Assembly: GCF_005222225.1 (NCBI RefSeq)
Contig: NZ_CP036536.1
Location: 3,186,001 to 3,250,000, forward strand
Direction: 5' to 3'
Origin: Salinimonas lutimaris
GTDB lineage: Bacteria > Pseudomonadota > Gammaproteobacteria > Enterobacterales > Alteromonadaceae
Length of the DNA stretch: 64,000 nucleotides
Part shown: piece by piece, positions 1-16,099 of the stretch
Layout of the letters: the number at the start of each line of letters is the position of its first letter
Numbering within the stretch: position 1 is the first letter of the stretch
Notes under the pieces: model-generated
Told to the model about the DNA's origin: nothing
Database searches by the model: none
Seen by the model: only the letters and a program-made list of their open reading frames with translations
Made by a program: the position numbers and the translations under genes

Positions 1-77
1 TCCGGATGACGTGCGATAACATCAAGGGTGCTGCAACCAATTGAACCGGTGGCCCCCAAAATCGTAATTGTCTGCAT
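1..77 (-). CDS. dxr: 1-deoxy-D-xylulose 5-phosphate reductoisomerase, N-terminal fragment (runs off the window)
   Basis: Only the first 25 or so codons are inside the window. The minus strand reads [20 protein letters not shown], which has the Rossmann NADPH-binding start (GATGSIG) of DXR, the enzyme that reduces and rearranges DXP to MEP in the non-mevalonate isoprenoid pathway. The ATG shares one base with the cdsA stop (TGATG), so the two are translationally coupled. The position after cdsA and uppS is the classic gammaproteobacterial order rpsB-tsf-pyrH-frr-uppS-cdsA-dxr. The rest of the gene lies to the left of base 1. Confidence 0.93.
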
Positions 78-940
78 CAGGCCATCCAGGTTACATAACA
101 AAATGCAAACACCGGAAAGGCTGCAGTAAGGCTGTCGATTCTATCCAGTACACCGCCATGCCCGGGCAGCAGTTTACCGCTGTCTTTAATACCCGCGCAG
201 CGTTTGAGCATACTTTCATTTAAATCGCCCAGCGCCGATACACCAACGGTAATCCCGCCAATCATCAGATGCAGCCAGATCATCGACATCGCCACGTGAT
301 AATGCAGTGCAGCAAACGCAATGATGGCCACAGAGGCGGTCACCCCGCCCAGCAATCCTTCCAGAGTTTTGCCCGGTGATACGTTCGGGCGCAGCTTATG
401 TCGACCAAACTTCACCCCGACAAAAAATGCGCCAATATCCGCCGCCCATACAATACCCAGTACGTAGAAAATCAGTGAAGAACCGTAGAAAGGATCCACA
501 TCGTGCAGGCTGGTGCGCAGGCTCACCACCGCAACCCAGGTTGGAATCAGGGTAAGCGCGCCAAACAGCACACGGATGCTTTTACTGTTACGCCAGAAAG
601 CAGAATAACGAGGATAGGCGATTATCATCGCCAGTGACACCACCCACCACAGTGCAGCGATGCCTAAAATGAAGTGATAAAGGCCGTGCAGCTTGCCCTG
701 ATACCAGATTTGCGATACATCAACAATCGTCGACAAAAGCATACACACCGCAAAGGCTGCGACCATGAGGGCGAATTTTTTAGGACGTTCACATATCCCT
801 GACATATTCGCCCATTCGTAAGCACCCAGACCGATGACACCGGCAATCGCTACTTCAAACCACCAAATGGGCAAAAATAAAATTGCAATCAGCGCCAGCG
901 GCGCCAGGATTAATGCAGTTATTATACGTTGTTTTAGCAT
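77..940 (-). CDS. cdsA: Phosphatidate cytidylyltransferase
   Basis: CdsA makes CDP-diacylglycerol from phosphatidate and CTP, the branch point of phospholipid synthesis, in the inner membrane. The protein is largely hydrophobic with about eight membrane segments, and its C-terminal part carries the CDP-diglyceride synthetase signature ([13 protein letters not shown], then [13 protein letters not shown]). I chose the ATG at 940, giving 287 residues close to the usual 285, because [20 protein letters not shown] is a normal family start and a purine-rich AAAGGAG lies upstream. A longer frame to 1015 would overlap the uppS end and add a hydrophilic tail unlike the family. Its stop overlaps the dxr start. 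Confidence 0.95.
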
Positions 941-995
941 AGTGGCTTCCGGCTCCTTTGGGTCAGCCTGGTTACTGGCAAGTTCAGTATTAGCG

Positions 996-1763
996 TCAGA
1001 CGCTAATCTGTTCACCGGTTAAGCCGAACCGGCGCTGGCGAATATTGAAATCGTCGACAGCCTGCTGAAACACTTCTTCAGTAAAGTCAGGCCAAAGTAC
1101 GTCAGTAAAATACAATTCTGCATAAGCACATTGCCATAATAAGAAGTTACTGATTCGACGCTCGCCACCGGTACGAATCATCAGATCCAGTTCGGGTAGG
1201 TTGGCAGTTGAAATATAGCTAGAGAGGCTCTCTTCAGTGATATCACTAACCTGCTGTTTGCCGTCCAGCACGTTTTGAGCAACCTGTTTGGCTGCGTGGG
1301 TTATATCCCAGCGCCCACCATAGTTAGCAGCAATATTAAGGACCAGAGACTGGTTGTCCCGGGTTAATGCTTCTGCTTTTGCAATTTTGGCCTTCAATTT
1401 ATCGTCAAATGCAGACACATCACCGATAACCTGTAAGCGCACATCGTTTTTATGCAACCGCTTTACTTCGCTATTCAACACTAAATTAAACAGCTCCATC
1501 AGTACACTGACTTCTTCTTGCGGGCGCTTCCAGTTTTCACTGCTAAAGGCAAACAGTGTCAAAGACTTGATTCCCGTGGTTCGGGCAAAGCGAACAACAG
1601 CACGAACAGAATCTACACCTGCTTTATGACCAAATGTACGAATTTTGCCTTTCTTTTGAGCCCAGCGACCGTTGCCATCCATGATGATGGCAACATGCTG
1701 CGGCCCAGCCTGTTCTGGCTGGGCCGCTTCGGTCCGGGCGGGTTGTGACCGCTTAGATAACAT
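996..1763 (-). CDS. uppS: Undecaprenyl diphosphate synthase (cis-prenyltransferase)
   Basis: UppS condenses eight isopentenyl units with farnesyl diphosphate to make C55 undecaprenyl diphosphate, the lipid carrier for peptidoglycan and for surface polysaccharides such as the one encoded at 24-38 kb. The diagnostic motif [13 protein letters not shown] is near residue 23, with the catalytic Asp of DGNGRW, followed by [14 protein letters not shown] and the C-terminal [19 protein letters not shown] block. At 255 residues the length is normal. It sits between frr and cdsA with short gaps, as part of the lipid and translation block. Confidence 0.96.
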
Positions 1764-1771
1764 GACCGCTT

Positions 1772-2329
1772 TTAGACTTCCATTAGCTCTTTTTCTTTCT
1801 CTGCCAGTTTCACATCAACTTGCTTGATGAAATCGTTGGTCAGAGTCTGAATATTTTCTTCTGCTGCGCGACTTTCGTCTTCGCTGATTTCCTTTTCTTT
1901 AAGTAGGTCCTTCACGTCACCGTTAGCATCACGACGAATGTTACGAATGGCAACTCGCGCTTGCTCAGCTTCGGCTCGAACCACTTTGATCAGGTCTTTA
2001 CGACGCTCTTCAGTCAGTGGCGGCATAGGGATACGGATTGTGGTACCAGCGCTCATTGGGTTTAAGCCCAAATCTGCCTGCATAATCGCTTTTTCAACCG
2101 CTTGCGTGGCACTTTTGTCAAACACTGTCAGCGCTAGTGTGCGGCTGTCTTCTGCTACCACGTTGGCAATCTGACGCAGCGGCGTGTCGGCGCCATAATA
2201 AGACACCTGAATGCCGTCAAGCAGGCTTGGGTGAGCACGGCCGGTACGAATTTTACTTAACTGGCTTTTCAGTGCGCTGATGCTTTTTTCCATACGCTCG
2301 CGCGCATCTAATTCAATTTCATCAATCAC
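1772..2329 (-). CDS. frr: Ribosome recycling factor
   Basis: RRF splits post-termination ribosomes together with EF-G. The 185-residue product has the standard length and the usual start [20 protein letters not shown], the conserved [15 protein letters not shown] segment of the helical domain, and the C-terminal helix ending in EKEKELMEV. It is preceded by pyrH (25 bp gap) and followed by uppS (8 bp gap), so it is probably co-transcribed with both. Nothing looks abnormal. Confidence 0.97.
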
Positions 2330-2354
2330 GATTACTTTCCTATTTTATTGCTTT

Positions 2355-3089
2355 TCAGTCTTGAGCATGGTCGATCAGCGTACCTTCTTGCTCACCCATG
2401 ACCACACGTTTCAGGCAACCCGGTTTATTCATGTTAAACACACGAATTGGCAGGCTGTGATCACGTGCCAGCGTAAAGGCAGACAGATCCATTACTTTTA
2501 ATTCTTTATCCAGCACTTCGTTGTAGGACAAGCGCTGATATAACTGCGCTTCCGGATTTTTCACCGGGTCATCACTATACACACCGTCTACTTTGGTTGC
2601 TTTTAACACAGCATCGGCTTCGATTTCGATACCGCGCAAACAGGCAGCTGAGTCAGTGGTGAAAAACGGGTTACCGGTACCGGCAGAAAAAATCACCACC
2701 CGGCCAGATTTCAGCAGGCTGATAGCTTCTGCCCAGTTGTAGGCATCGCACACGCCATTTAGCGGAATGGCTGACATCAGGCGGGCGTTAACAAATGCAC
2801 GGTGCAGTGCATCACGCATGGCCAGACCGTTCATTACGGTAGCCAACATACCCATATGGTCGCCCACAACCCGGTTCATGCCGGCTTTCGCCAGGCCTTC
2901 ACCACGAAACAGATTACCACCACCGATAACCAGGCCAACCTGGACACCCAGCTCCACCAATTCTTTGATTTCCTGAGCCATCCGGTCCAGAACTTTCGGG
3001 TCAATGCCGAAACCTTCTTCGCCCATCAGGGCCTCACCGCTAAGCTTTAGCAAAATTCGACGATAGGCTGATTTTGGTGTGATACTCAT
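2355..3089 (-). CDS. pyrH: Uridylate kinase (UMP kinase)
   Basis: PyrH phosphorylates UMP to UDP using ATP. It is a hexamer of the amino acid kinase fold, not related to eukaryotic UMP kinases. Visible motifs are [14 protein letters not shown] at the N terminus, [11 protein letters not shown] for nucleotide binding, [13 protein letters not shown], and [14 protein letters not shown] take the start at 3089 ([16 protein letters not shown], 244 residues) rather than the ATG at 3107, because an AGGA lies about 11 bases upstream of the inner ATG and the outer one has no ribosome binding site. A terminator at 3200-3226 separates it from tsf. Confidence 0.95.
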
Positions 3090-3199
3090 TGTTTGATTTG
3101 TCCTCATAAACGCGGCTTGTCGTATTTCTCGCTATGCAAGAAATGGGACAAGGCGGCTAAATTATTCTGATAAACGACGTTCGCGCCGACCAATACTTA

Positions 3200-3226
3200 C
3201 AAAAAAGCACCTCCGAAGAGGTGCCC
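3200..3226 (-). terminator. Rho-independent terminator after tsf
   Basis: Reading the minus strand, a 7 bp stem GCACCTC/GAGGTGC closes a TTCG tetraloop and is followed by six T. It lies about 45 bases past the tsf stop and ends the rpsB-tsf transcript before pyrH. Confidence 0.9.
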
Positions 3227-3271
3227 GTAGTGTATCTGACTATTGCGTTATGCAAAAGTGAAAGGCCAGAA

Positions 3272-4144
3272 TTATTTCTTAGCAGCAGCCATTTGAGCAG
3301 CAACTTCTGCAGCGAAATCTTCTTCTTTCTTCTCGATACCTTCACCAACTTCAAAACGGATGAAGTTGTGAACGTCTGCGCTGTTGCTCTTCAGCAGGTC
3401 ACCAACAGAAACAGAAGGATCTTTAACGAAAGGCTGACCAGTCAGGCTGATTTCGCCAGTGAATTTCTTCATACGGCCAGCAACCATTTTCTCAGCGATG
3501 TCAGCTGGCTTACCAGACTGCATAGCGATATCGATTTGGATGGCTTTTTCTTTTTCCACAACTTCAGCCGGAACTTCTTCAGGCTTAACAAACTGTGGGC
3601 TTGCCGCTGCAACGTGCATAGCCACGTCTTTAGCCAGCTCTTCGTCACCGCCAGTCAGGATAGAGATAACTCCGATACGGCCGCCGTGTACGTACGCGCC
3701 CAGGTTGTCACCTTCGATGCTAACAACGCGACGAGGAGAGATGTTTTCGCCGATTTTGGCTACCAGGTTCTCACGAACTGTGCTGATAGTTTCGCCATTC
3801 AGCTCTGCATTGTTCAGCGCTTCGATGTCATTCAGACCCTGAGCGTGAGCAACGTTAAGAATTTCGTTACCGAACTTCAGGAAACCTTCGTCACGAGCAA
3901 CGAAGTCAGTTTCACAGTTCAGTTCAAGCATGGTTGCGCGGCTGCCTTCAACCTTAGTCAGGATCACACCTTCAGCGGCGATACGACCTGCTTTTTTCGC
4001 AGCTTTCGCCTGACCAGACTTACGCATGTTATCAATCGCCAGCTCGATGTCACCATCGGTCTCAACCAGCGCTTTTTTACAATCCATCATGCCTGCGCCT
4101 GTGCGCTCACGTAGTTCTTTAACTAGTGCTGCAGTCACTGCCAT
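3272..4144 (-). CDS. tsf: Elongation factor Ts
   Basis: EF-Ts is the nucleotide exchange factor for EF-Tu. The 290-residue protein begins [20 protein letters not shown] and carries the family blocks [18 protein letters not shown] and, in the core domain, [15 protein letters not shown] with the conserved TDFVAR that contacts EF-Tu. It follows rpsB after a 122 bp gap containing a hairpin that could attenuate transcription, as between rpsB and tsf in E. coli. A strong terminator follows. A long open frame on the opposite strand is a by-product of its biased codon use. Confidence 0.97.
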
Positions 4145-4177
4145 TTTTCAATTCCTCAGCATTAATATTTAATGGTA

Positions 4178-4197
4178 AAAGGGGCATTTGCCCCTTC
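4178..4197 (-). terminator. Hairpin between rpsB and tsf, possible attenuator
   Basis: A perfect 7 bp stem AAGGGGC/GCCCCTT with a 4 nt loop sits in the rpsB-tsf gap on the minus strand, followed by only a short T run. E. coli has a partial terminator at the same place that lowers tsf relative to rpsB transcription. The same role here is an inference. Confidence 0.55.
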
Positions 4198-4266
4198 ATA
4201 GATATTCTTCGGATAATATGACAGCGGCATGTCAAACCATGACGCTGTCATAAGAGCTGGTAGCGA

Positions 4267-4998
4267 TTACTCAGCTGCTTCTACGAAGTCGTCCTGCTCA
4301 GCTTGCGCTTCCAGGTTGCTGTCGCGACCTGAAGCTACAGCGCTTGCAGCGGCTTCAAGGTACAGCTGAATTGCACGAATCGCATCGTCGTTACCAGGGA
4401 TAACGTAGTCTACGCCATCTGGGTTAGAGTTAGTATCTACCACACCAACAACCGGGATACCCAGGTTACGTGCTTCAGTTACTGCGATGTGCTCGTGGTC
4501 AGCATCGATAACAAAGATCGCGTCAGGCAGGCCGCCCATGTCTTTGATACCGCCCAGGCTGTTTTCAAGCTTGTCCATTTCACGCTGAAGCATCAGCGCT
4601 TCTTTTTTAGTCAGCTTTTCGAACGTTCCGTCCTGGCTTTGTTGCTCAAGGTCTTTCAGACGCTTGATTGACTGACGAACTGTTTTCCAGTTAGTCAGCA
4701 TACCGCCCAGCCAACGCTTGTTTACGTAGTACTGGTCGCATTTCAGGGCTGCTTCTTTAACTGCTTCACCAGCTGCACGCTTGGTACCAACGAAAAGGAT
4801 TTTACCTTTTTTCGATGCAACGCCAGAAAGGTAGTTCATCGCTTCGTTGAAAAGCGGAACCGTTTTTTCCAGGTTGATGATATGAACTTTGTTACGCGCA
4901 CCAAAGATGTAAGGCTTCATCTTAGGATTCCAGTAACGAGTTTGGTGACCGAAGTGAACACCTGCTTTCAGCATGTCACGCATTGAAACATTAGCCAT
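4267..4998 (-). CDS. rpsB: 30S ribosomal protein S2
   Basis: S2 binds the 30S head/body junction late in assembly. The 243-residue product starts [20 protein letters not shown] and contains [13 protein letters not shown], the helical insert [19 protein letters not shown], and the C-terminal [14 protein letters not shown] and [13 protein letters not shown] segments. An upstream in-frame ATG at 5163 would add 55 residues translated from the leader RNA and is not used. The ATG at 4998 has a good GAGGA ribosome binding site. Expression is probably autoregulated through the leader (separate entry). Confidence 0.97.
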
Positions 4999-5105
4999 GA
5001 TTTTTTCCTCAATATTGGGGTTAGGCCTCCATACACCCCTTGTATCGATCCGGCGAACCGGACACCCCGATAACAAGTGTCGGTGTATGTGTGTTATTAA
5101 GATTA
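4999..5105 (-). promoter_or_regulatory. rpsB leader RNA, candidate S2 autoregulatory element
   Basis: The transcribed leader can fold into several hairpins just upstream of the rpsB ribosome binding site: TCCGG-TTCG-CCGGA (5049-5062), a flanking stem made by ACACCGA and TCGGGGTGT, and GGGG/CCCC enclosing TGTATGGAGGCCTAA next to the start. This resembles the conserved rpsB 5' leader by which S2 represses its own and tsf translation in E. coli and relatives. The hairpins are seen in the sequence; binding by S2 is inferred. Confidence 0.6.
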
Positions 5106-5179
5106 ATCGTACCTGATTTGCGCCACAACCAAGCCAGTCAGAAACCGTCTTTTTTATGGCCAAACAAACAGGCGGGCGC

Positions 5180-5208
5180 TTTATACCATGACGACCGGTC
5201 TAACTCAA
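5180..5208 (-). promoter_or_regulatory. Sigma-70 promoter of rpsB-tsf
   Basis: On the minus strand a -35 TTGAGT (5203-5208) is separated by 17 bases from a -10 TATAAA (5180-5185) that also has an extended -10 TG. A GC-rich discriminator (GCGCCCGCC) follows, as in stringently controlled ribosomal promoters. The predicted transcript starts near 5173, giving a leader of about 175 nt. Confidence 0.7.
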
Positions 5209-5346
5209 GTTAAACGCCCTATTTAACTGCCTTTGCCTATACACAGTGCTGATGAACAGTTACCATAGGTGCATTGTTCTTGATCCGTGCGTATTCAGCC
5301 TTATTAAGAAACCAGTTATTCATTATCACAATGTAAGAGGATTCCG

Positions 5347-6138
5347 GTGGCAGCAATTATAAAAACTGCAGAAGAAATCGAAAAAATGCGCGTGGCAGGC
5401 AAACTGGCCGCGGACGTTTTAACGATGATCACACCTTATGTAAAAAAAGGCGTGACAACAGATGAACTGAACACCATCTGTCATGACTACATCATCGAAC
5501 ACGGTGCAACGCCTGCTCCGCTGAATTATGGTCATCCGCCGTTCCCAAAATCGATTTGTACTTCCGTGAACCACTGTATCTGCCACGGTATCCCGTCAGA
5601 CAAAAAACTGAAAGACGGCGATATTCTGAATATTGACGTGACCGTTATCAAAGATGGCTATCATGGTGATACTTCAAAAATGTTCATCGTGGGCAAACCG
5701 GCGATTCTGGCCGAGCGCCTGACCCGCGTGACCCAAGAATGCCTGTACAATGCGATTAAACAGGTGAAGCCCGGCATGCGCTTAGGTGATATCGGCCATC
5801 TGTGCCAAACGCACGCTGAAGCGCATAACTATTCAATCGTACGCGAGTATTGTGGTCACGGTATCGGTGCCGGTTTCCATGAAGAACCACAGATTGTGCA
5901 TTATGGTCGTCCGGGTACAGGTGAAGAGCTGGTACCAGGTATGTGCTTTACCATTGAACCCATGGTCAATGCTGGCAAGCGCTATTCCAAAATTCTGCCG
6001 GATCAGTGGACCGTTGTCACCAAGGACCGCAGTCTGAGCGCTCAGTGGGAGCACACCCTGCTGGTTACCGAAGATGGTGTTGAAGTATTGACTCTACGCG
6101 ATGAAGAAGATCTGCCAAGGGTTATCAGCCACAGCTAA
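5347..6138 (+). CDS. map: Methionine aminopeptidase, type I
   Basis: MAP removes the initiator methionine from nascent proteins. The 263-residue sequence has the type I metalloprotease layout: HGIPSDKKLKDGDILNIDVT supplies the first metal Asp, GYHGDTSKMF the second, YCGHGIGAGFHEEP the metal His, FTIEPMVN a Glu, and QWEHTLLVTEDG the last Glu. It starts at GTG with a strong AAGAGGA ribosome binding site five bases upstream. It is divergent from rpsB, the same arrangement as in E. coli and many relatives. Confidence 0.96.
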   Translation: MAAIIKTAEEIEKMRVAGKLAADVLTMITPYVKKGVTTDELNTICHDYIIEHGATPAPLNYGHPPFPKSICTSVNHCICHGIPSDKKLKDGDILNIDVTVIKDGYHGDTSKMFIVGKPAILAERLTRVTQECLYNAIKQVKPGMRLGDIGHLCQTHAEAHNYSIVREYCGHGIGAGFHEEPQIVHYGRPGTGEELVPGMCFTIEPMVNAGKRYSKILPDQWTVVTKDRSLSAQWEHTLLVTEDGVEVLTLRDEEDLPRVISHS

Positions 6139-11046: not shown

Positions 11047-11361
11047 TTATCGGATTTTACTCAGGTTGTCGAGCACCATCAGCAAGTGGACTAACGGCAT
11101 ATGTTCCTGTCCATAAGCTTCATGAGCCATGGGAGCCACCGCCATGTCCGCAGGTAACTGCTGATGCAGCTGAACATGTTCACGTATACCGGGCAGGTAA
11201 ATAAACTGCAGCCATTGTTCAAACGATAGCGTATCGATGGCAAATGGCTCCCGGGAGGCTAGCGCAGAGGGCTCGGGCTGCGTTTCGCTCCACAAGCGGG
11301 CCGCTTTGAGATAAGCGATAATGTCGTCTAATTTGGCGTCTATAAAAGCAATATCAGTCAC
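11047..11361 (-). CDS. yqcC: YqcC family protein
   Basis: A 104-residue protein of the YqcC (DUF446) family, whose function is not known. The recognisable core is LSFEQWLQFIYLPGIREHV in the middle, followed by an alpha-helical C-terminal part. It starts at GTG with a weak ribosome binding site. It is the first gene of a yqcC-truC-yqcA transcript, with a good promoter 30-70 bases upstream. In E. coli yqcC also neighbours csrB; here two plus-strand genes lie between them. Confidence 0.88.
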   Translation of the reverse strand: MTDIAFIDAKLDDIIAYLKAARLWSETQPEPSALASREPFAIDTLSFEQWLQFIYLPGIREHVQLHQQLPADMAVAPMAHEAYGQEHMPLVHLLMVLDNLSKIR

Positions 11362-11486: not shown

Positions 11487-12551
11487 ATGAGCGCAGAACG
11501 TATCGAGTCGATCAGTGAGTTTTTACTTCATGCTGGCACAAACTTTAGCGTACTTGATATGGGCCGGGGCATGGCAGAATTGCCTGCGCAGACGTTCCTG
11601 GAAATAGAAAACGGTCAACGTGTGGTCCCCTGGCCACGCCAGCAACACGCCTGGTTTGCGGTTATTTTCTGGAATAATCAGCCACAGGCACAAGAATATA
11701 TCTGGTTTTTAAAGTTTCCGGTGGATGAACAGGGATTGCTGGTCACAGCCACCCGCAACCATTTTTTACAGATTATTGTTGATGCGCTGGGGTCAAGCCT
11801 GAGTGAAGACACAGAAAAAGCAGAAAAACTGCCGGATAACCCGTATACCTTTGTACCCAATCAGTCTGTTATGGCTCAGTTCAGTGCATTCACCCGCCAG
11901 TTATTTAACAAGCCTCTAGCGAAGGGAGCAACTGAAGTCGAGGAATATATCCGTCACCCGGCCGTTATGGACTGGACTAAACTGTCGGTACAGGCTATTG
12001 CTGATGTCGCATTGCGCCTGCCCGATAAAGCCCTTAGCGAGCCTCTGATTCGTCAGATGGACTTATATGCGGCTGACTTTATTCAGACCTTGTTGCATGC
12101 GGCTGAAAATACGCCTCTGCCGGATGAATTTGAGCAGGCGCTGGTGACTACCCTTGAGCAGGGTCTTACCCCCGATGATGAAAAACGTCTGGATCTGGCT
12201 CGCCTGCGCGCCCTGGCGAGCAGCCAGCCGGCGCCCCGTGTTCAGCGCTTACTGACACAGTTACTGGCCCCTGAGCAACCGGTTGACATGGATACATTAA
12301 GTGTCATTGCAGGCCGGCATTTTGTGCAGTTTGATGAGTCCCTGCTAAAAGCCTTTTTTGAACAGGTGGCGATGGTTGATGAGAAAAAGCAGTTTAATGG
12401 TGCGCTGTTTCAAGGCTTTTTTGCCGATCTGGTGCGTTTACCCGTATTACGCGACCAGGTGCTGGCCTTGCTACGCACCCCTGAGCGCAGCGACAGTCTG
12501 GCTCGCGCTATTGGGACCTTGTTCTCACAAACCCGGGGAGCACAGTCGTGA
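11487..12551 (+). CDS. DUF3549 family protein
   Basis: A soluble, mainly helical 354-residue protein that I assign to the DUF3549 family of gammaproteobacteria from its start (MSAERIESISEFLLHAGTNF, then VLDMGRGMAELP) and its position. No catalytic motif is evident. The second half is rich in Leu and Ala with repeated helix pairs. It overlaps the next gene by four bases (GTGA), so the two are coupled and probably work together. The pair lies between yqcC and csrB and points convergently towards csrB. Function unknown. Confidence 0.8.
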   Translation: MSAERIESISEFLLHAGTNFSVLDMGRGMAELPAQTFLEIENGQRVVPWPRQQHAWFAVIFWNNQPQAQEYIWFLKFPVDEQGLLVTATRNHFLQIIVDALGSSLSEDTEKAEKLPDNPYTFVPNQSVMAQFSAFTRQLFNKPLAKGATEVEEYIRHPAVMDWTKLSVQAIADVALRLPDKALSEPLIRQMDLYAADFIQTLLHAAENTPLPDEFEQALVTTLEQGLTPDDEKRLDLARLRALASSQPAPRVQRLLTQLLAPEQPVDMDTLSVIAGRHFVQFDESLLKAFFEQVAMVDEKKQFNGALFQGFFADLVRLPVLRDQVLALLRTPERSDSLARAIGTLFSQTRGAQS

Positions 12552-12853
12552 CACTGGGTGAGGTAATTCTGCTGTTAGTCATGGTGGTTGTGGCCATGCA
12601 GTTTTGGCGTATTCGCAGTATCAGTGAACAGGCTAATCAGCAAATTGCCCGCTATTGTCAGACCCATAATCTGCAGCTGCTGGCAGTGGCCAGAAAACAA
12701 ACCCGTTTGTCGTTTCGTTATGGCAAGCTTGACTGGCTATCGGTATTTATATTTGAGTTTTCCGGCAATGGAGAAGATAAGTATACCGGTGAAGTGCAGA
12801 TGATAGGACGCAACGTCATCAATACTGAGTTGCTTCCCTACCGGGTGAGTTAG
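12548..12853 (+). CDS. DUF3301 family small membrane-anchored protein
   Basis: A 101-residue protein with one N-terminal membrane segment (about residues 3-18, LGEVILLLVMVVVAMQFW) followed by a short soluble domain containing LQLLAVARKQTRLSF and FEFSGNGEDKYTGEV. The topology and sequence fit the DUF3301 family. It starts with GTG inside the stop of the DUF3549 gene. Its own stop lies 30 bases before the 3' end of the convergent csrB RNA, whose terminator stem may also serve this transcript. Function unknown. Confidence 0.8.
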   Translation: MTLGEVILLLVMVVVAMQFWRIRSISEQANQQIARYCQTHNLQLLAVARKQTRLSFRYGKLDWLSVFIFEFSGNGEDKYTGEVQMIGRNVINTELLPYRVS

Positions 12854-12882: not shown

Positions 12883-12917
12883 TCAAAAAAAGCGACAACA
12901 ATATTGCTGCCGCTTTC
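12883..12917 (-). terminator. Intrinsic terminator of the CsrB-like RNA
   Basis: Minus strand: a 10 bp stem (AAGCGGCAGC with GTTGTCGCTT, two G-T wobbles), a 6 nt AATATT loop and a run of T. In the other direction the stem is followed by TTTCTTT, so it may partly terminate the convergent DUF3549-DUF3301 transcript. Confidence 0.9.
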
Positions 12918-13719
12918 TTTGAATTTTGAGCATCCATCTCTGCTGTCCGTAGCAACAGGTCAATCATGACCTAAATCCATGTACGCCCTTTCCCTCTTAT
13001 CCCGCAAGTCCTGTGCGGGCTGCCGTTCCATTGACAGTTCCCTTTTCCATTGGTCCTTACATCACAACACATCCTTCATGTTGCAACCCTCGTCCCTGAG
13101 GTGGTCCCTAGACGCCTGCCTGGCTTAACTCCCTCTCCTGCCGGTGTTCCATGCCGGCTCCTGTGCATCCCTGCTACGTTGTTCCTTTAACGTAATCTCA
13201 CCCCTGAGATGTCCTTTTTTGCCAATCCCTGGCCTGTCTTCCTTTTCACTCCCTGATTCTCTTCCATGATTTCCGCAGGTCCGGCGCTCCCTGCCGACAC
13301 CTGCGCTTCCCTGCAGCGTCAGTTCCCTTGACGCACACTCACTACAGTGAGCATTCCTTTGTGCCTGCCTGGCATATCGTCCCTGATTACCCACACTCCC
13401 TGTGGGCTCACGCTCCTTGTTTAGCCTGACACTCCTTGTGCCAGCTTCCCTGCCGCTCGCCTCCCTGCGCGCTATCCCTTTAACGCCGATCCCTTTGGCG
13501 TATTACCATCCACTGGCTTGTCCTTCGACCATACCGGCCGTGTTCCCTTTCCTTTAACCTTATTCCTTAAGGTGTCTTCATCTGTGAAGATGTCCGGGCT
13601 CACTCCTTTGAACTGTCCTTTGTCCTTAAGTCCGTTTCTCAACCAATCCGTGTTGACTAACTGTTCCCTAAGTTCCAATCTAGTTCGTGTCGTCCTGACT
13701 CGTCGTGTCTCCCTGTGAC
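12884..13719 (-). ncRNA. csrB: CsrB-family CsrA-sequestering RNA, unusually long
   Basis: An untranslated minus-strand RNA of about 836 nt. I counted 53 GGA triplets on this strand, about one per 16 bases, mostly as AGGGA, AAGGA or CAGGA. Several are exposed in loops of perfect stems: CCCGCA/TGCGGG with loop CAGGACT (13001-13019), GCGTCA/TGACGC with loop AGGGAAC (13316-13334), CCCACA/TGTGGG with GGGAG (13390-13406), ACGCC/GGCGT (13483-13501), ACGTT/AACGT (13176-13193) and ACCTTA/TAAGGT with AGGAA (13557-13573). This is the design of CsrB RNAs, which titrate the translational regulator CsrA. The 5' end (GTCACAGGGAGACACGACG) resembles that of E. coli CsrB as I recall it, and the locus between yqcC and syd is syntenic. 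A strong terminator ends it. E. coli CsrB is about 370 nt, so this is about twice as long. Open frames across it are short and have no family features. Confidence 0.9.
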
Positions 13720-13723
13720 AGAA

Positions 13724-13732
13724 ACTATAGTA
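13724..13732 (-). promoter_or_regulatory. -10 region of the csrB promoter
   Basis: Minus strand TACTATAGT contains overlapping -10 candidates (TACTAT, TATAGT) six to eight bases before the proposed start at 13719. No good -35 lies at 16-18 bases, which suits an activator-dependent promoter. Confidence 0.55.
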
Positions 13733-13888: not shown

Positions 13889-13906
13889 TGTACGAAATGT
13901 CTTACA
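13889..13906. promoter_or_regulatory. GacA/UvrY-type upstream activating box for csrB
   Basis: TGTACGAAATGTCTTACA fits the GacA/UvrY/LetA consensus TGTAAG-N6-CTTACA with one mismatch. It is centred about 180 bases upstream of the proposed csrB start, the distance typical for csrB and rsm RNA promoters, whose transcription needs a BarA/UvrY-type two-component system. Confidence 0.7.
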
Positions 13907-15276: not shown

Positions 15277-15579
15277 ATGGGCAGTGATGTGATACAGCAA
15301 CTGGTGATGCTAAGCCACCAGCTTCATCAGCAAGGGCTTCAGCCCAGCGTCGGACTACTTCGAAGCAAAGCACCTATGAAGGTCAGTGTGACGCAGGCCA
15401 TTGATGCGATTAAACGGTTTAACGCCAGTGATAAAGCACCAGCGCCCACCAAGACTGACGATGCCCGCTCAATCGATGCGCTGCAAAAACGAGTGGATAC
15501 ACTGGAAGCCGCCGTCGCCGTACTGGAGCAACGGCTAAATAAGCTCACTCAGGCAGACGCGGACTCAGTGACTGAATAA
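15277..15579 (+). CDS. Small protein with HTH-like N terminus and C-terminal coiled coil
   Basis: A 100-residue protein of unknown function. The N-terminal part (VIQQLVMLSHQLHQQGLQPS, then VGLLRSKAPMKVSVTQAIDA) has the helix pattern of a small winged-helix DNA-binding region like that of KfrA-type proteins. A low-complexity linker (DKAPAPTKTDD) leads to a predicted coiled coil (ALQKRVDTLEAAVAVLEQRL). I chose ATG 15277, with AGG six bases upstream. Starts at 15241 (also with AGG) and GTG 15223 are possible. Its 3' end overlaps the convergent syd gene by 35 bases. Confidence 0.6.
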   Translation: MGSDVIQQLVMLSHQLHQQGLQPSVGLLRSKAPMKVSVTQAIDAIKRFNASDKAPAPTKTDDARSIDALQKRVDTLEAAVAVLEQRLNKLTQADADSVTE

Positions 15580-16099
15580 AAGACACCAAATCGGGGGCCA
15601 GTACTTCGGTGGCTTTTTTGCCCACCCGTTCCAGCAGTACTTCTGCGGTCTGGTTGTCGACAGTCAGAATCAGCTCATCATCACTGGTTAAACCAAAAAA
15701 CAGTGTTTCAGGCTGTTTCAGGCGTCGCTTCATCAACACATGCCCGATGAGATTTTCCTGCAAACGCTCAAAATCCTGCTGGTTAATGACCTGCAGCAGT
15801 TCACAATCTCCCTGTGCTGCGGTAGCCGGCAGATTTTCTGAATAATAACAGCGGAAAAATTCGCAATACTGGGCATTAAGCTTAAGTTCCAGCGCCTTTT
15901 CCACTTCCACAAAGCTGCCCGGCTGTGTCTGCCTGACCGGTCGCCATGCCACCTGTTCGCCGTCTGTGGCCGGATGGCGATGACAAGGTGAATCCCAGCC
16001 GGCTTCATACGTCACTTGCAGTGGCCGCCCTGCTGCATCCGCCTTACTCAGCAGGCTGGTAATAAAACCGTCAAGCACCTGGTCTATAGTTTGTGACAT
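15545..16099 (-). CDS. syd: SecY-interacting protein Syd
   Basis: Syd is a peripheral protein that binds cytosolic loops of SecY and is thought to check the translocon. The 184-residue length matches the E. coli protein (181). Family features include VLDGFITSLLSKADAAGRPL at the N terminus, SPCHRHPATDGEQVAWRPV in the acidic-cleft region, and YCEFFRCYYSENLPA. It is divergent from queF, as in E. coli, and csrB lies further along on the same strand. Its last 35 bases overlap the small plus-strand gene. Confidence 0.92.
   Translation of the reverse strand: MSQTIDQVLDGFITSLLSKADAAGRPLQVTYEAGWDSPCHRHPATDGEQVAWRPVRQTQPGSFVEVEKALELKLNAQYCEFFRCYYSENLPATAAQGDCELLQVINQQDFERLQENLIGHVLMKRRLKQPETLFFGLTSDDELILTVDNQTAEVLLERVGKKATEVLAPDLVSFIQSLSPRLPE

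Follow-up and report, generated by a model that had tools for sequence, protein, structure and literature searches.

The GGA triplet in a hairpin loop can act as half-site for a CsrA dimer, and the sponge RNA CsrB of Escherichia coli holds about 9 CsrA dimers. The usual ligand of CsrA is described as the hairpin-loop GGA, and bridging is given as possible over 10 to 63 nt, with an optimum above 18 (PMC7652899). In the surveyed genus, whose members include Alteromonas and Salinimonas as judged from locus matches to named records, what are probably such RNAs have been described under other names. For A. macleodii Te101, three very abundant RNAs, Aln1a-c, were reported; they start at three non-coding sites within 404 bp, of which Aln1a is the strongest. 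The Aln1 RNAs are rich in A(N)GGA motifs, and sequestration of CsrA was proposed as their role (PMC5864184). A. mediterranea expresses AltRNa1, reported as 424 nt (PMC4223743). Among the papers listed in searches of the open-licence PMC literature, only these two on Alteromonas bear on the locus (PMC3840354 and PMC5568370 deal with other subjects), and no report was found of a CsrB as long as the one described here.

We analysed a window of 64,000 nt from Salinimonas lutimaris (contig NZ_CP036536.1, positions 3,186,001 to 3,250,000), in which a sequence-only reading had pointed to a giant CsrB-type RNA. The best-supported reading, to which we give a probability of about 0.88, is that the region encodes an elongated csrB, a presumably UvrY-driven sponge RNA of about 835 nt that would titrate CsrA by sequestration. 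We identify the RNA as CsrB because of synteny, the upstream box and its spacing, the terminator, the GGA triplets in local hairpin loops and the covarying helices in 14 related RNAs. The features are listed in Table 1.

The gene order yqcA-truC-yqcC-[RNA]-syd-queF is shared by the window and E. coli, with matching orientations. The order in E. coli K-12 is yqcA, truC, yqcC, csrB (minus), syd (minus) and queF (plus), and that in the window is a flavodoxin gene, truC, yqcC, DUF3549, DUF3301, the RNA (minus), GNAT, two small ORFs, syd (minus) and queF (plus). The name TruC was assigned from best match and position, because the score of 301 bits is below the NCBIfam cut-off of 328. The earlier placement of the RNA between yqcC and syd is correct for the block as a whole, which is the position that defines csrB, but the direct neighbours are the DUF3301 and GNAT genes, yqcC and syd being 2-3 ORFs farther away. 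By its position, the window RNA is thus very likely orthologous to E. coli csrB. The window also contains an ordinary known element, the t44 RNA (Rfam RF00127, 79.9 bits), at 5020-5111 on the minus strand.

The reported number of GGA triplets was reproduced. The 836 nt between 12884 and 13719 contain 53 triplets on the minus strand and none on the plus strand, as compared with a mean of 32.1 (sd 3.8, maximum 44, n=1000) for dinucleotide shuffles of the same stretch and with a maximum of 22 per 836-nt stretch elsewhere in the window, both strands being scanned. The spacing of the triplets ranges from 6 to 31 nt with a mean of 14.9, and the 3' end of the RNA is probably located at about 12885 rather than 12884. 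The location of GGA in minus-strand hairpin loops was likewise borne out: using a stem of at least 4 bp and a loop of 3-12 as the definition of a local hairpin, 33 of the 53 triplets were assigned to local loops, against 18.3 ± 3.4 when the other letters were shuffled around fixed GGAs (maximum 27, n=300). The same script gave 15 of 22 for E. coli CsrB, against 8.8 ± 2.4 after shuffling (maximum 15). In the single minimum-energy fold of the window RNA, 31 of the 53 GGA are fully unpaired and 16 lie wholly within a hairpin loop (9 of 22 in E. coli CsrB). Over the fold ensemble, both RNAs have their GGA 80% unpaired, as compared with 46% and 44%, respectively, when all bases are taken. The fold z-score is −5.4, and the real 836-nt stretch beats 20 of 20 shuffles. 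The RNA therefore shows what is expected of its class, GGA repeats above chance and mostly in hairpin loops or single strands.

Upstream of the RNA is a box of the type that we take to be a UvrY/GacA site. Exact matches to TGTAAGNNNNNNCNTACA occur at two places in the whole genome, one of which is this box. When one mismatch is allowed, the pattern is no commoner than expected by chance (14 and 17 matches against 11 and 19 for the control). A similar pattern, TGTGAGAGATCTCTTACA, was detected at −191 of E. coli csrB as compared with −187 in the window. Among 59 rows of relatives, the box is present in 44, and in 35 of these it is located at −186 or −187. No consensus sigma-70 promoter for the RNA was found by the promoter scan. 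The sequence GTCAC..GGA.ACACGACGAGTCAGG, which also served to select the rows, recurs at the 5' ends of relatives. On the minus strand of the interval no internal intrinsic terminator was found, the only one being that at 12922-12883, in agreement with the earlier remark that no T-rich break occurs inside. Synteny, box spacing and terminator likewise support the earlier view that locus, 5' end sequence, terminator and upstream box agree with csrB.

Table 1. Features of the csrB-like locus in window coordinates
Feature	Position	Strand	Remark
Candidate Csr sponge RNA (very likely csrB ortholog), ~835 nt, 53 GGA	12885..13719	-	5' end (13719) deduced from sequence conservation
UvrY/GacA-type box (putative) TGTAAGACATTTCGTACA	13889..13906	-	starts 187 nt upstream of inferred 5' end
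-10 hexamer TACTAT	13727..13732	-	positions -13 to -8; similar hexamers in many relatives
Conserved 5' segment	13690..13719	-	median 90% identity to 41 long relatives, rows chosen by the same motif
Variable middle	13038..13689	-	44 of 53 GGA; accounts for extra length
Conserved 3' module and terminator	12885..13037	-	covariance-model match; contains 7 of 53 GGA
Intrinsic terminator	12883..12922	-	sole one detected on RNA strand; closes RNA
DUF3301 gene	12548..12853	+	convergent neighbour of RNA
DUF3549 gene	11487..12551	+	anchor in comparison of relatives
yqcC (DUF446)	11047..11361	-	
syd	15545..16099	-	

The RNA cannot be filed under the Rfam CsrB family (RF00018). With this model, the use of which the sequence-only reading had proposed, the best score in the window was 10.2 bits against a cut-off of 71. 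Rfam searches of the window at gathering and relaxed E-value thresholds gave no CsrB call, the matches being far below the family cut-offs, and at the cut-off the CsrB model found nothing in the window's own genome. Under stricter filters, none of 369 genomes of the class passed, with one weak match below the cut-off, and E. coli alone passed among 14 control genomes. Because of these last two results, the failure of the Rfam model is weak evidence against CsrB. Homology in sequence to E. coli CsrB appears to be limited to motif, position and ends, and a model of the 3' module (see below) has no match there. The window RNA appears to be a stretched member of a known RNA family, not a new kind of system.

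The interval was then compared among relatives, as the earlier reading had recommended. In the genus, 57 of 59 genomes were examined, 2 being left out at contig ends, and a GGA-dense element near the DUF3549/DUF3301 genes was detected in 54; two of the three negative genomes are cut at contig ends. In locus L263 (genome G015, 1-6001), no GGA-dense element was observed in 6 kb beside the DUF3549 gene; it may be farther away or absent from the assembly. The median for the 54 positive loci is 39 GGA and a GGA span of 515 nt. The window element is the genus maximum in both (53 GGA, 780 nt span), followed by counts of 49-51 in 625-632 nt. A named Paraglaciecola locus has 46 GGA in 649 nt. In other genera of the family, the element was found in 34 of the 65 genomes fetched, with at most 40 GGA.

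For estimation of length from start to terminator, 81 loci were entered and 59 rows (54 distinct sequences) were kept; 12 rows with a GGA cluster were dropped for want of a recognised 5' motif or terminator, and 10 for being below the cluster threshold. The estimates range from 317 to 835 nt, with 20 to 53 GGA. The window RNA is the longest of the 59 rows, the next being 669 nt, and the other 53 distinct sequences have a mean length of 511 (sd 107). The window is the extreme of a genus in which long versions are usual, rather than a singleton.

The ends and the middle of the RNA differ in conservation. A covariance model was made from the 3'-terminal 155 nt in 17 relatives, excluding the window. 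It matched the window at 12885-13037 on the minus strand with 113.9 bits (E=6.2e-28), with a weak plus-strand echo of 15.7 at the terminator, and 28 of 38 further sources outside the training set at E<0.001; no match was obtained up to E=1 in L227, L252 or the E. coli csrB locus. In the comparison of the window with 41 long relatives (rows of at least 430 nt), the median identity over gapped columns was 90% for the first 30 nt, 67% for the last 175 nt and 44% for the middle, the last value being depressed by length differences alone; the baseline for the shuffled 3' end is 50%. As the 5' motif was the rule for row selection, the 5' conservation in the 59 rows is partly by construction. Given these identities, head and tail are homologous across relatives, and the fast-evolving middle carries the length together with most of the GGA. 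The window RNA has both the conserved 5' segment and the 3' module near the DUF3301 gene, the combination that defines what is probably the Aln1-locus family.

The secondary structure was examined in 14 aligned RNAs from the A. macleodii group; the window is not among them. The structure comprises 102 predicted pairs in 23 helices with 98.2% of cells paired, a figure favoured by prediction from the same alignment. Double-sided changes were found at 19 pairs in 11 of the 23 helices, as compared with 4.6 in shuffles and 5-6 in slid structures.

A single RNA of about 835 nt is likely, and yet this is the weakest part of the earlier reading, because the A. macleodii locus that we infer to correspond gives three start sites, Aln1a-c. 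In genome G012, RNase P and SRP RNA enclose 336 kb in which a single GGA-dense element occurs, the studied locus (score 25.3, the rest at most 3.3). On the basis of this RNase P/SRP RNA bracket, Aln1, AltRNa1 and the studied locus are probably the same locus. Aln1 was equated with it by the bracket argument only, since the 404-bp interval of Te101 gave no match to ORF ends in G050 and G012. Two observations fit poorly with this identity: AltDE1 and G012 do not agree in the spacing to RNase P and SRP RNA, and the identity of the G012 element to that of G050 is 84.6%, against a published average of 77% between the two species (PMC5864184). If Aln1 is the studied locus, its expression in Alteromonas is already established, and there may be several start sites.

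The sponge locus might accordingly work as several RNAs, either nested transcripts from internal starts or pieces processed from a long one. The three start sites in the Aln1 interval (PMC5864184) and the 424-nt size of AltRNa1 (PMC4223743), both placed at the locus by the bracket, point in this direction. Nevertheless, the RNA strand showed neither an internal terminator nor a consensus internal promoter, be it in the window or in G050, although the promoter scan is weak evidence on internal promoters, missing the main promoter too. Furthermore, the 5' motif and the 3' module each occur once in the window, the latter as one strong match. Moreover, decay products can give rise to internal 5' ends in differential RNA-seq data. 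We consider the working as several RNAs possible, albeit unlikely. Tandem duplication as the origin of the length found no support: the 5' motif is present in one copy even when up to 4 of 17 mismatches are allowed, and the 3' module gives one strong match. Direct repeats in the RNA are limited to one 16-nt pair at 81%, and the sole repeat detected by Tandem Repeats Finder was a 9-nt double near the terminator. Of the earlier statement, one RNA rather than tandem copies, the second half agrees with the lack of support for tandem duplication and with the finding of no internal terminator, but the first half is weakened by the three start sites of Aln1a-c.

A different doubt concerns the function of the extra length. 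The RNA could be a Csr sponge of which the added part arose by neutral drift, many GGAs being weak or unused and the CsrA capacity unraised. Such drift would agree with the poor conservation of the middle (median 44%, against 67% for the 3' end and 50% for the shuffled 3' baseline) and with the 20 of 53 GGA that are without a local hairpin by the definition used. The density of GGA, however, stays between 5.7 and 7.9 per 100 nt in all 59 rows over a 2.6-fold range of length, suggesting selection for sites, even if the finding of rows by GGA density itself favours such constancy. On this evidence we regard neutral drift as doubtful. A coding function of the interval, or a role as a long mRNA leader, is highly improbable, since against the minus-strand ORFs of 89 and 68 aa stand the lack of a Pfam match at E<=0.01 for any of the three ORFs found there (89, 68 and 66 aa), in line with the earlier finding of no credible gene, the indels of relatives not divisible by three together with the covarying helices, by which the alignment speaks against coding in relatives, and a terminator that closes the RNA in front of a convergent gene.

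The preferred reading of an elongated csrB requires Csr partners, and the window's genome has one csrA and a UvrY ortholog (291.7 bits against a cut-off of 280). In one member of the genus, a second CsrA-family gene above the Pfam cut-off was noted (G065:C1:1699221-1699376, minus). A second Csr RNA of similar density was looked for in the genome by a scan with two triple-motif patterns and by inspection around the second box, and none was seen. With the ARGGA pattern, 16 of 19 genome matches fell at the csrB locus, and with MAGGA 4 of 21, the remainder being scattered. No second GGA cluster of comparable density was found genome-wide with these patterns, which sparser GGAs or other contexts could escape, and there is no GGA cluster in the 7 kb surrounding the second exact TGTAAGNNNNNNCNTACA box. 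Two of the scattered matches overlap at 3392925-3392993. At this place (L272, about 2420-2500), near-tandem GTTCAGGACT...AGTC units were observed in a T-rich stretch, possibly forming a repeated small hairpin.

Some related loci carry two RNAs. A second GGA-dense element in the same orientation, 0.4-3.1 kb away, was detected in L121, L122, L123, L125, L126, L127 and L215 (Marisediminitalea/A. lipolytica-type), the second element of L126 being at the edge of the locus. The elements of these seven loci are shorter, with totals of 35-54 GGA, and two loci of other genera, L229 and L235, also have two elements, with totals of 34 and 32. In the five of the seven loci that were searched with the 3'-module model, L121, L122, L125, L127 and L215, both copies were recovered. 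The totals of two RNAs resemble that of one long RNA elsewhere, and a conserved total capacity is suggested. At the same time, many single-RNA loci have only 19-31 GGA (e.g. L120, L128, L102 and L115).

By the proposed mechanism, phosphorylated UvrY would bind the box at −187 and activate transcription from 13719, giving an RNA that extends for about 835 nt to the single terminator. Its many short hairpins would present loop GGA, any of which could serve a CsrA dimer as half-site, and sequestration of CsrA by the RNA would free the target mRNAs. The 5' end and the 3' module of about 150 nt are conserved, and the middle probably grew by the addition of hairpins while the GGA density hardly changed. 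Some 20-25 CsrA dimers could thus fit on one molecule, and we infer a capacity above 20; given the GGA spacing and the bridging range, neighbouring sites would not all be usable by one dimer. As a tentative extension, for which we see less than an even chance, sponge capacity is tuned by RNA length, the middle gaining or losing hairpins between a fixed head and tail; the window RNA would be a single molecule for more than 20 CsrA dimers, and lineages with two RNAs would reach similar capacity by duplication. Seemingly one orthologous sponge RNA is available in nature at graded lengths, from 317 nt with 20 GGA up to 835 nt with 53, partly in named marine isolates, so that the scaling of sponge capacity, and hence of the sharpness of the CsrA switch, with sites per molecule is directly testable. 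Rfam's CsrB model misses the window RNA.

Among described systems, Aln1a-c of A. macleodii Te101 are probably from the same locus and share the A(N)GGA-rich sequence and the proposed role as CsrA sponge (PMC5864184). They differ in size, three RNAs being reported from 404 bp and one of 424 nt for AltRNa1, whereas the G012 and G050 elements are estimated as 627 and 635 nt and the window RNA as 835. CsrB1 and CsrB2 of Shewanella, likened here by description and not by sequence, are BarA/UvrY-driven CsrA antagonists, as is proposed for the window RNA, but they are two RNAs against one in the window (PMC11045786). E. coli CsrB is alike in gene neighbourhood and orientation, in the 5' GTC..ACAGGGAG, in the UvrY-type box about 190 nt upstream, in a mean GGA spacing of about 15 nt, in the 80% of GGA unpaired in the ensemble and in the terminator. 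The window locus differs in that the neighbours common to both are separated by additional genes (DUF3549, DUF3301, GNAT) and a pair of small ORFs, and in its failure with the Rfam model. The sequence-only reading had put E. coli CsrB at roughly 20 GGA in about 370 nt; by our count it has 22 GGA in 369 nt, and the window RNA, with 53 GGA in 835 nt, is indeed more than twice as large in both length and GGA number.
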